A stretch of DNA of 37,388 nt from an uncultured Massilia sp. (GTDB taxonomy: Bacteria > Pseudomonadota > Gammaproteobacteria > Burkholderiales > Burkholderiaceae_D), in NCBI GenBank assembly GCA_913777025.1, contig CAJYQM010000497.1, positions 1 to 37,388 of the forward strand, written 5' to 3'. Position 1 is the stretch's first letter. Each line of letters begins with the position of its first letter. A model generated the notes under the pieces. It had not been told where the DNA came from. It made no database searches and saw only the letters and a list, made by a program, of their open reading frames with translations. The position numbers and the translations under genes are program-made. Of the stretch, positions 13,648 through 23,705 are shown one piece after another.

Positions 13648-14415
13648 ATGACGATGACGACGATCCTGGTTGCAGAAGACGAACCGCTGATGCGCGAACG
13701 CCTGCTGGAAATGCTGGCGCACGCCTGGCCCGAGGCGACGGTGGTGCAGGTGGCGGAAAACGGCAACGATGCCTGGGATGGCTTCCTGGCGCACGAGCCC
13801 GACGTCGCCTTCCTCGACATCCGCATGCCTGGCCTGTCCGGCCTGGAAGTGGCCGAACGCATCGGCAAGCTGGCCCACGTGGTGTTCGTCACGGCCTACG
13901 ACCAGTACGCGGTCGATGCGTTTGACGCCGGCGCGGTCGACTACCTGTTAAAACCCGTGCAGGCCGACCGCCTGGAGCGGGCCGTGGGGCGCCTGCGCGA
14001 GAAACTGTCGCCGGCTGCGGGGAATGCGCCGCCCGCCGACCTGGGGCACTTGCTGCATCATCTGAAATCGGCGCTGCCGGGCATGCGGCCGGAGCGGATC
14101 AAGTGGCTGAAGGCCAATGTCGGACGGCAGATCCGCCTGATCGACGTCGAGGATGTCCTGTTCTTCCAGTCGGACACCAAGTACACGCGGGTGAAACTGC
14201 GCGATTCGGAAGCGCTGGTGCGCACGCCCTTGAAGGACCTGCTGTCCGGGCTGGACCCGGACCGGTTCTGGCAGATCCACCGCGGGATCGTGGTGAACGC
14301 CGGCGCGATCGCGGCGGCGGAGCGGGTCGATGCCGAGCGCCTGCAGGTGCTGCTGCGCGATTGCGACGAAAAGCTGCCGGTCAGCCGGACTTTTGCCTAC
14401 CTGTTCCGGGATTAA
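13648..14415 (+). CDS. LytTR-type response regulator
   Basis: This is a 255-residue two-domain regulator. Residues 4-120 are a receiver with acidic Glu10-Asp11-Glu12, phospho-acceptor Asp57 (AFLDIRMPGLSG) and Lys102 (DYLLKP). Residues ~150-253 are a LytTR DNA-binding domain (RQIRLIDVEDVLFFQSDTKY, then VRTPLKDLL, FWQIHRGIVVN and LPVSRTF). It should bind DNA as a dimer once phosphorylated by the kinase immediately upstream. Likely targets are its own operon (see the inverted repeat at 12417-12438) or distant genes; nothing adjacent suggests a specific pathway. A palindromic repeat copy follows the stop. Confidence 0.92.
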   Translation: MTMTTILVAEDEPLMRERLLEMLAHAWPEATVVQVAENGNDAWDGFLAHEPDVAFLDIRMPGLSGLEVAERIGKLAHVVFVTAYDQYAVDAFDAGAVDYLLKPVQADRLERAVGRLREKLSPAAGNAPPADLGHLLHHLKSALPGMRPERIKWLKANVGRQIRLIDVEDVLFFQSDTKYTRVKLRDSEALVRTPLKDLLSGLDPDRFWQIHRGIVVNAGAIAAAERVDAERLQVLLRDCDEKLPVSRTFAYLFRD

Positions 14416-14420
14416 TAGCG

Positions 14421-14527
14421 CCTGACAAGACCTTCAGGGCAAGGGATGCGGCCTACCGACGCATCATCGAAGACAGTACGAATAGTACGGCGAGACGATG
14501 CAACGCAGCCATGGAGGTTTTGTCAGG
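14421..14527 (+). repeat. palindromic MITE-like repeat, copy A
   Basis: This ~107-bp element fills the gap between the convergent regulator and recQ genes. Its ends are inverted repeats: CCTGACAAGACCTTC at the left, and GGAGGTTTTGTCAGG at the right (13 of 15 match after reversal). The middle is also palindromic (CATCATCGAAGACAGTACG / AGTACGGCGAGACGATG), so the RNA would fold into a long hairpin. A related copy in opposite orientation lies at 23038-23129. No coding capacity is seen. In this position it may act as a shared terminator-like structure. Confidence 0.75.
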
Positions 14528-14529
14528 TG

Positions 14530-16398
<1,869 letters not shown>

Positions 16399-22178: not shown

Positions 22179-22835
22179 TTATGCTGCCAGCTTTTCCTCG
22201 CGCTTGCGCCACTCGATCAGCTCGGCAATCGTCAGGATCGGATAGCCGCGCTCGCGCGCGAATTTCTCGATCGCTTCGCCGCGCATCATGGTGCCGTCTT
22301 CGTTCATCAGTTCGCACAGCACGGCGGACGGCTGCAGGCCGGCCAGGATCGACAGGTCGACCGAGCCTTCGGTGTGGCCCTTGCGGCCCAGCACGCCGGC
22401 CGGGTTGGCGCGCAGCGGAAATACGTGGCCCGGGCGCACCAGGTCGTGCGGCTTGGCGCCAGGCGCGATCGCGGTGCGGATCGTGGTGACGCGATCGAGC
22501 GCGGAGACGCCGGTGGTGACGCCTTCGCGCGCCTCGATCGAGACGGTGAACGGGGTACCGTACTTGCTGCCGTTCTCGAGCGCCATCGGCGGCAGTTCCA
22601 GCGCGCGCACGGTCTCTTCGGTCAGGCACAGGCAGACGATGCCGCTGCATTCGCGGATCATGACGGCCATGGTTTCGACGGTCAGCTTTTCGGCGGCGAC
22701 GATCAGGTCGGCCTCGTTCTCGCGGTCGAAATCGTCGAGCAGGATGACCGGGATGCCGGCCTGGGTGGCTTCGATGGCGGCGGCGATGCGGCCTTCCAGA
22801 TCGTTGCTCTCGAGAGTGAAGGTATTGATGGTCAT
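22179..22835 (-). CDS. ribB: 3,4-dihydroxy-2-butanone-4-phosphate synthase
   Basis: This is a 218-residue enzyme of riboflavin synthesis that converts ribulose 5-phosphate to 3,4-dihydroxy-2-butanone 4-phosphate and formate. The acidic metal and substrate loop [16 protein letters not shown] and the sequence [17 protein letters not shown] are diagnostic. The protein is RibB alone, without a GTP cyclohydrolase II (RibA) domain. The frame extends to a TTG at 22853, but ATG 22835 has AGGAG at 22844-22848 and begins the family-like [10 protein letters not shown]. An FMN riboswitch lies upstream, so FMN should repress it. It ends at the shared terminator with tolC. Confidence 0.95.
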
Positions 22836-22968
22836 TTGAGACGCTCCTCGCAATGGGCAGATTCATGCACGTTTCAACGTGCAATGGTTAGCGAAAAACG
22901 CATCAGGGCAAAGCGAAACGGCGCGGTCCTGCATGCCGTGGAGACACGCGGGTGCGTAATGACGCTAC
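22836..22968 (-). promoter_or_regulatory. ribB leader between aptamer and start (expression platform)
   Basis: This segment links the FMN aptamer to ribB. It holds a 7-bp perfect hairpin TGCACGT-TTCA-ACGTGCA (22866-22883) about 18 nt before the ribosome site at 22844-22848. No GC hairpin plus T-run is seen, so control of translation start is more likely than transcription termination. Confidence 0.5.
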
Positions 22969-23210
22969 ATCTTCTTTCATCCGGACTATACCGTCGGCCC
23001 TGGCTTCTCACCAGATCTGCTGACCCCGCATAGCGCGCCTAACAAAGCCCTCATGGCGGCGTTGCATTCGTCTCGCCGTACTAGCGTACTGTCTTCGACG
23101 ATGCGCCTTGCCCTGAGGGCTTTGCTAGACGCGCTGCAATTGCAGGCGCTCGCGGGCTCGGCCGTGATGGCCATACCGCCGGTGGGGAATCGCACCCCGC
23201 CCCGAAGACG
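22969..23210 (-). ncRNA. FMN riboswitch (RFN element) upstream of ribB
   Basis: The minus strand holds the conserved 5' part (GGGGCGGGGTG, ATTCCCCACCGGCGGTA, GAGCCCGCGAGCG) and the 3' part (GTCAGCAGATCTGGTGAGA, GCCAGGGCCGACGGTATAG, TCCGGATGAAAGAAGATG). The outer helix P1 is formed by GTCTTC near 23208 and GAAGAT near 22971. The two halves are separated by ~120 nt instead of a short variable stem, because a palindromic repeat (copy B, 23038-23129) sits there. FMN binding should lower ribB expression. Confidence 0.95.
23038..23129 (-). repeat. palindromic MITE-like repeat, copy B, inside the FMN riboswitch
   Basis: This ~92-bp element has inverted ends: CCTAACAAAGCCCTCATGG on the plus strand, and the right end reverse-complements to TCTAGCAAAGCCCTCAGGG. 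Its centre is palindromic (TCGTCTCGCCGTACTAG / CGTACTGTCTTCGACGA). Reversed, it aligns with copy A at 14421-14527 through GGCAAGG, GAAGACAGTACG and AGTACGGCGAGACGA. A ~13-bp stretch of copy A is absent here. It lies exactly in the variable loop region of the aptamer. Confidence 0.8.
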
Positions 23211-23244
23211 TATTGATTGTGTCCGCGGAATGCGGACGCGAAAG

Positions 23245-23253
23245 ATTGTAGCA
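23245..23253 (-). promoter_or_regulatory. probable extended -10 promoter of the riboswitch-ribB transcript
   Basis: On the minus strand TGCTACAAT (23253-23245) is an extended -10 element (TGn plus TACAAT). Transcription would start near 23238, about 28 nt before the aptamer. No good -35 box is present, as is common for extended -10 promoters. Confidence 0.5.
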
Positions 23254-23291
23254 GGCCCGGCGGAAGCTTGCCGGGACCGCCGCTGTTGGGT

Positions 23292-23705
23292 TTAGTTGCT
23301 CAACCCACCACCGCCGGCATTGTCGGCGCGCTCGATCAGCTCGACCTTGTAGCCATCCGGATCGGTGATGAAGGCGATCACGGTGGTGCCGCCCTTGACC
23401 GGGCCCGGCTCGCGCGTGATGTTGCCGCCGGCCGCGCGCACTTCGTCGCAGGTTTTGTAGATGTCTTCGGTCGAGAGGGCGATGTGGCCGTAGGCGGTGC
23501 CCATCTCGTACTTGTCGGTGCCCCAGTTGTAGGTCAGTTCGATTTCCGCGTGGTCCGGGTTGTTGCCGTAGCCGACAAAGGCCAGGCTGTACTTGTACTC
23601 CGGGTTTTCGCTGGTGCGCAGCAGTTTCATGCCCAGCACCTTGGTGTAGAAGTCGATGGAGCGCTGCAGGTCGCCGACGCGTAACATGGTGTGCAGGAGG
23701 CGCAT
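23292..23705 (-). CDS. gloA: lactoylglutathione lyase (glyoxalase I)
   Basis: This 137-residue metalloenzyme isomerises the glutathione-methylglyoxal hemithioacetal to S-lactoylglutathione. The four metal ligands of the E. coli type enzyme are all at their standard positions: His5 (MRLLHTML), Glu56 ([10 protein letters not shown]), His74 (AYGHIAL) and Glu122 (GYKVELIE). The body matches the family strongly ([20 protein letters not shown]). It is transcribed alone toward ribB. A short Gly-rich tail (NAGGGGLSN) is the only variable part. Confidence 0.97.

Follow-up and report, generated by a model that had tools for sequence, protein, structure and literature searches.

REP/RAYT palindromes are short, dispersed elements that lie near gene ends. 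In Betaproteobacteria, the BRE has been described as a short repeat with many copies, mostly intergenic and sometimes arranged in tandem with a few bases between them (Hot et al. 2011, PMC3110155). It is reported from several families of the class, with Alcaligenaceae, Rhodocyclaceae and Comamonadaceae given in a table, and has features of mobile elements; full-length copies from Bordetella measure 75-91 bp and have a mean GC of 69.0% (PMC3110155). All BRE copies are described as chromosomal, the passages of the report considered here mention no copy in a riboswitch, and the word "hairpin" is absent from its main text (PMC3110155). Palindromes have also been reported inside structured RNAs: Rickettsia palindromic elements (RPE) of 105-146 bp are inserted, possibly neutrally, in the tmRNA and M1 RNA genes (PMC2229807). 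In riboswitches, extra stem-loops are reported to be tolerated where they leave the core undisturbed (PMC2258182).

We analyzed a contig of 37,388 nucleotides from an uncultured Massilia sp. (CAJYQM010000497.1; hereafter the window), in which an FMN riboswitch aptamer (RFN element) containing a repeat lies on the minus strand at 22965..23213. Cmscan matched this aptamer to RF00050 over model positions 1-138 of 138 (23213-22965; 104.6 bits against a gathering threshold of 66.2, E-value 1.7e-23), which bears out the original prediction that both conserved halves are unbroken. The gap between the halves, earlier put at ~120 nt, is indeed long, with 128 nt from GCCCGCGAG to GCAGA. Outside P4, the aptamer had no changes private to the source genome in an alignment of 8 leaders, 7 of them from relatives. 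The riboswitch is upstream of, and on the same strand as, ribB (3,4-dihydroxy-2-butanone-4-phosphate synthase; 22179..22835, minus strand; NCBIfam TIGR00506, 224.8 bits against a cut-off of 177.45), whose frame of 218 aa is intact and starts with an ATG at 22835. The next gene upstream of the ribB leader encodes lactoylglutathione lyase (23705-23292, minus strand).

Within the P4 loop we found a dispersed, BRE-like palindrome of 102 bp (23033..23134, minus strand), delimited by the ends that it has in common with other copies and matched by a covariance model of the repeat, R1, with 113.8 bits (23031-23136). The repeat had been recognized before, at ~92 bp (23038-23129); the repeat stands, and the shared ends correct its size. 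The long hairpin proposed for it was also recovered: the segment 23029-23136 folded at -66.6 kcal/mol, whereas 200 shuffles averaged -35.06 (sd 3.21), giving a z of -9.83, and the longest uninterrupted helix in the folded repeat was 22 bp. We differ on the suggestion that the repeat replaces the variable stem, because it lies rather in the P4 loop, with the stem base CCUGCA/UGCGGG kept in folds with and without the repeat. The 5' strand of the P4 base, together with the left flank of the insert (GCCUGCAAUUGCA; 23135..23147, minus strand), was assigned from folds with and without the insert and from the P4 of relatives, and the 3' strand (UAUGCGGGG; 23024..23032, minus strand) from the fold and the same relatives. 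RNase III needs a helix about as long as the one of 22 bp predicted here, and the long helix might therefore be an RNase III site at which the leader would be cut within P4 and the aptamer split. However, the aptamer could stay folded after cleavage of a peripheral loop, and we regard this outcome as rather improbable.

Comparison with relatives demonstrated that the ribB-leader palindrome is an inserted copy of a dispersed repeat, absent from this position in other species. RF00050 matches were present in 45 of the 62 genus genomes including the source, whose riboswitch measures 249 nt; those of the remaining 44 are 140-171 nt long. The segment from GCCCGCGAG to GCAGA, with its 128 nt in the source, spans 19-33 nt in these 44 riboswitches (the set includes G197, a leader flagged by the orientation check, whose P4 was read). 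Apart from the source, the longest of the matches listed was 197 nt in a family sample (RF00050 in 43/116 genomes) and 185 nt in an order sample (42/250 genomes, 41 of them above the cut-off); in both samples the comparison was one of match lengths rather than of each P4 stem, and samples of more than 40 genomes were run with stricter filters, under which weak matches may be lost. In addition, an exact pattern in which the repeat precedes the P5 motif, intended for both orientations, gave no second P4 insertion in genome_contigs (84,980 species, one genome each). This pattern requires exact letters, so that diverged or truncated copies escape it, and records near the window were possibly left out; its match to the window itself is a control for one orientation only.

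A long stem native to the riboswitch could appeal to the variable P4 of relatives, whose length between the two conserved motifs covers the 19-33 nt given above. Against this, the source assembly holds 14 further matches to the repeat, the other FMN matches are no longer than 171, 197 and 185 nt in the genus, the family sample and the order sample, respectively, and the exact pattern gave no second case. Nor did we see the long stem shared by relatives that lack the repeat elsewhere: P4 is short in relatives, and 12 of 13 selected other genus genomes carry copies elsewhere (13 of 14 including the source; none in G113 and one weak match in G192), in agreement with an inserted repeat as originally proposed. 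The short P4 of relatives and the dispersed copies contradict a native long stem, to which we attach almost no probability. Among genus members without repeat matches, G113 has a 171-nt FMN riboswitch (locus L128) that is apparently expanded in the stem before P4.

BLAST of the source assembly gave 15 repeat matches, including the ribB-leader copy and a second copy in the window. Two draft contigs begin at repeat copies (G000:C537:1-78 and G000:C79:1-53), and the copy number in the source genome is therefore probably underestimated. The second window copy (14414..14534, plus strand; model R1, 80.8 bits) lies between two convergent reading frames identified with a crude gene caller, both of which end within 5 bp of it, and carries ~15 extra bases in one arm. 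It belongs to a longer size class comprising 11 of the 57 genus copies analyzed, which match over 118-121 nt compared to about 105 (the window copy and L259, L265, L261, L235, L238, L251, L240, L254, L256 and L263). Beyond the source, BLAST detected the repeat in 42 of 145 family genomes, with 3 of the 8 genus genomes in that search lacking a match (G098, G113 and G126). Across the order, model R1, which was built from 41 copies picked by a core regular expression and in which core conservation is thus partly by construction, had matches in 106 of 300 genomes, spread over 59 of 134 genera. Of the 35 pairs in the consensus hairpin, 21 showed at least one compensatory change among the 41 copies, with both sides altered and the pair kept.

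Among 72,556 plasmid records one carried the repeat, a Massilia litorea plasmid with 83.7% identity, and phage records gave no repeat match. A search by exact pattern for copies of this type arranged in tandem gave 8 stretches, namely 5 from Janthinobacterium, 2 from Duganella and 1 from an Oxalobacteraceae MAG. We found no Rfam family for the repeat, the two microRNA matches being far below gathering scores, and no Rfam match overlapped a repeat copy in 60 loci scanned (54 copy loci from four genus genomes, a further 5 loci from the genus, and L021; L130 repeats L217). One of the loci examined, L004, has a match to RF02278, a Betaproteobacteria toxic small RNA, at 2927-2989 (50.4 bits against 50), ~1.3 kb from the repeat copy. 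Inspection of the aligned copies by eye revealed no common target-site duplication; the ribB site is in a variable loop, where the empty site can be placed only approximately. With model R1, the repeat was inside none of 57 other FMN aptamers. In only one of these loci, L021 of genome G014 (same family, different genus), the repeat lies at 1754-1857 beside the aptamer, between it and the ATG of the next gene, which we take to encode lumazine synthase. A terminator-like hairpin was seen by eye in L021 after the FMN aptamer and ahead of the repeat copy.

A draft assembly of 542 contigs and 83.5% completeness, in which two repeat matches begin at the first base of contigs C537 and C79, raises the question of whether the assembler misplaced a repeat copy into the aptamer. 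The flanks of the insert, however, are the two halves of one aptamer, in order and with the P4 strands on either side, whereas false joins at repeats would normally unite unrelated flanks. We consider such an artefact very improbable.

The gene context of the repeat was derived from 57 copies in four genus genomes (L217-L267), with genes called crudely from length and codon-position GC. These copies were kept from 74 match rows after leaving out opposite-strand duplicates, copies truncated at the end of a contig or stretch (L003, L008 and the second of L249) and a weak second match (L255). The caller mislabelled the ribB copy as "divergent", as the lactoylglutathione lyase gene upstream is also on the minus strand. 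Flanking stop codons were at a median distance of 2 bp and within 50 bp in 57/67 cases, compared to a median of 80 bp for flanking start codons (within 50 bp in 16/47). In gaps between genes of the same direction the copy was nearer to the stop in 19 of 21 cases (binomial P 0.0002), and in 16 of 23 convergent pairs both stops were within 25 bp of the copy. Copies often fill the entire gap between convergent genes. In uncontrolled counts over 56 copies, the best 8-nt window had a median of 5 U in the 3' arm and of 4 A in the 5' arm; the ribB copy has 5 U. Because of this placement at stop codons and the U and A runs in the arms, a role resembling that of a bidirectional terminator is plausible for the repeat family. 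The ribB copy, located within a 5' leader, is atypical of the family. We found no reports on terminator-like repeats of this kind in the literature searched.

If the ribB copy acted in the same way, the repeat would be an intrinsic terminator in the aptamer, and many ribB transcripts would end ~180 nt in, regardless of FMN, which would be tolerated because ribB is accessory. The position of copies at stops, in same-direction gaps and convergent pairs alike, and the U-rich run in the 3' arm of the ribB copy are consistent with such termination. However, a pattern scan of 22800-23400 that allowed only loops of 3-8 nt found no terminator, the U-run is short and paired within the fold, 16 of the 47 flanking starts are also within 50 bp of a copy, and the L021 copy follows an FMN aptamer and stands ahead of a gene. 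The coding capacity of relatives bears on the same reading. In 61 of the 61 other genus genomes there was a second match of ribB type (68-71% identity), as an accessory ribB would lead one to expect, and in one relative this match is a 368-aa frame that resembles RibBA by eye. In the source assembly, which is 83.5% complete, no second ribB-type protein was found; a second DNA match was counted there and is not among the matches listed. Because the second match occurs in all of these relatives, gene redundancy may help the riboswitch tolerate the repeat. On the other hand, ribB and the aptamer appear constrained. Pairwise dN/dS of ribB was 0.144 and 0.161 against the two nearest relatives, values that merge the time before and after the insertion, and 0.18-0.39 against six other relatives, for which misplaced start codons may inflate dN. 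Weighing these observations, we find constitutive termination within the aptamer possible and unlikely. For the original idea that such palindromes spread harmlessly, the stop-codon placement and terminator-like look of the copies, a helix that may suit RNase III and the second ribB-type gene of relatives are reasons for caution.

We also asked how the computed fold of the leader depends on the repeat, in models at 37 C that include neither ligand nor tertiary contacts nor pseudoknots. The minimum-energy structure outside the repeat was identical with and without it, and over the whole leader 0.984 (98.4%) of the insert-free pair mass was kept. Dinucleotide-shuffled repeats in its place kept a mean of 0.616 and a maximum of 0.876, so that 0 of 200 reached the value of the native repeat. 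Insulation is unequal among copies, since the 41 aligned copies of the family (the own one among them) kept 0.867 on average and 0.418 at minimum when placed in the same site; the own repeat when reversed kept 0.938. Fold-model energies were nearly additive (-64.2 and -106.0 compared to -171.7). The aptamer-like state, in which the P1, P2, P5 and P6 pairs were enforced, was 1.1 kcal/mol above the free state both with and without the repeat (4.07 and 4.08 for the ensemble). The computed balance of the switch is thus almost unchanged because the closed hairpin is insulated from the remaining RNA.

Downstream of the aptamer, the folds and the leaders of relatives revealed a conserved strand of the expression platform (GCUUUGCCCUGAUGCG; 22899..22914, minus strand). 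In the free fold the platform sequence GCCCUG is paired to the CAGGGC of the aptamer. When the aptamer-like fold is adopted, the 3' end of the platform pairs around the Shine-Dalgarno sequence, a stretch that is largely paired in both folds. This predicted pairing fits translational control of ribB. The first 12 nt of the conserved platform strand (22903-22914) are complementary to a repeat arm (23105-23116; 12 bp, -21.1 kcal/mol), and a longer platform stretch reached -28.1 kcal/mol against the whole repeat, an energy equalled by 1 of 500 mononucleotide shuffles. Capture of the platform by the repeat was nevertheless rejected, as the pairing of platform and aptamer persists across the ensemble (mean probability 0.954). 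With this pairing retained, and with duplex energies from -20.3 to -32.2 across the 41 aligned copies, we interpret the complementarity as a property of the family that is masked by the hairpin.

In the models, truncated transcripts behaved differently before and after completion of the repeat. When the repeat was unfinished (transcripts of 90-175 nt), 4.8-17.3 pairs were expected between it and the 5' part of the aptamer, dropping to 0.4 at 181 nt, where the repeat is complete. At 12 stop points between 190 and 378 nt, transcripts kept 0.925-0.991 of the pairing computed for the corresponding RNAs that lack the insert. In these models the complete repeat appears to fold alone, which suggests that the aptamer and the platform fold nearly as before. 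Because the incomplete repeat engages the 5' half of the aptamer in pairing, folding kinetics may change, as allowed for originally, or be delayed during that interval; a lasting change was not seen in the models.

Taken together, these results make it likely that a dispersed palindrome of a type widespread in Burkholderiales has inserted in the P4 loop of the ribB FMN riboswitch, sparing the core and leaving the switch in place. According to the mechanism that we propose, a repeat of about 102 bp would have entered the P4 loop of the riboswitch preceding ribB. Since almost the entire repeat is self-complementary, its RNA would close into a hairpin that sits on the remaining P4 base and points away from the core that binds FMN. 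The riboswitch would then still bind FMN and control ribB by governing how accessible the ribosome-binding region is; transcription of the repeat would cause a kinetic delay at most, and ribB would be an accessory gene in this organism. The locus points to a specific source of the variable insertions of riboswitches, namely the entry of a self-complementary repeat into a peripheral loop, and offers a natural test of the modularity of aptamer folding. It also draws attention to a widespread and possibly terminator-like palindrome family that has no Rfam match here. We put forward tentatively, as a speculation that is probably too broad, that variable stems of riboswitches are safe harbours for mobile palindromes, that some long variable insertions are domesticated or decaying copies, and that the copy described here may add a second control point inside the aptamer, through termination or RNase III.

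Compared to the systems described so far, the window repeat resembles REP/RAYT palindromes in being a short dispersed palindrome near gene ends, and differs from them in having no visible link to a Y1 transposase. Y1 matches were present in 7 of 9 genomes searched and absent from 2, although both of these carry the repeat, and none of 16 Y1 loci had a repeat copy beside the Y1 gene within the stretches examined. A RAYT link was rejected on these grounds; with Y1 genes present in 7 of the 9 genomes, a distant Y1 helper may still serve the repeat. The nearest published family is probably the BRE or a close kin of it, as compared by description and not by letters. By description, the two share a similar size, intergenic placement, tandem copies and a wide spread in the class; in contrast, the window repeat is about 102 bp long, its GC ranges from 0.51 to 0.70 over model matches, and one relative is on a plasmid. 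The 8 stretches that matched the exact tandem-copy pattern of the window's type include none from Bordetella, which argues mildly against close identity with the BRE.

The host RNA is an ordinary member of RF00050 in its full-length match, its conserved core and its position upstream of ribB, and departs from it in the dispersed repeat within P4 and the resulting 249 nt, compared to 140-171 nt in the genus. With the RPE it shares a dispersed palindrome of similar size inside a structured RNA, but here the host RNA is a ligand-sensing riboswitch, the organism is another one, and the repeat family is set apart by description. We found no report, in the literature searched, of a dispersed repeat forming the variable stem of a riboswitch. 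As in the variable riboswitch stem-loops described earlier (PMC2258182), a stable stem-loop occupies a site that is tolerant of length and leaves the core unaffected, whereas here the source of the insertion is recognizable as a genomic repeat. Stem-loop insertions in riboswitches and palindromic repeats in structured RNAs are each known already; what is new at this locus is their meeting.
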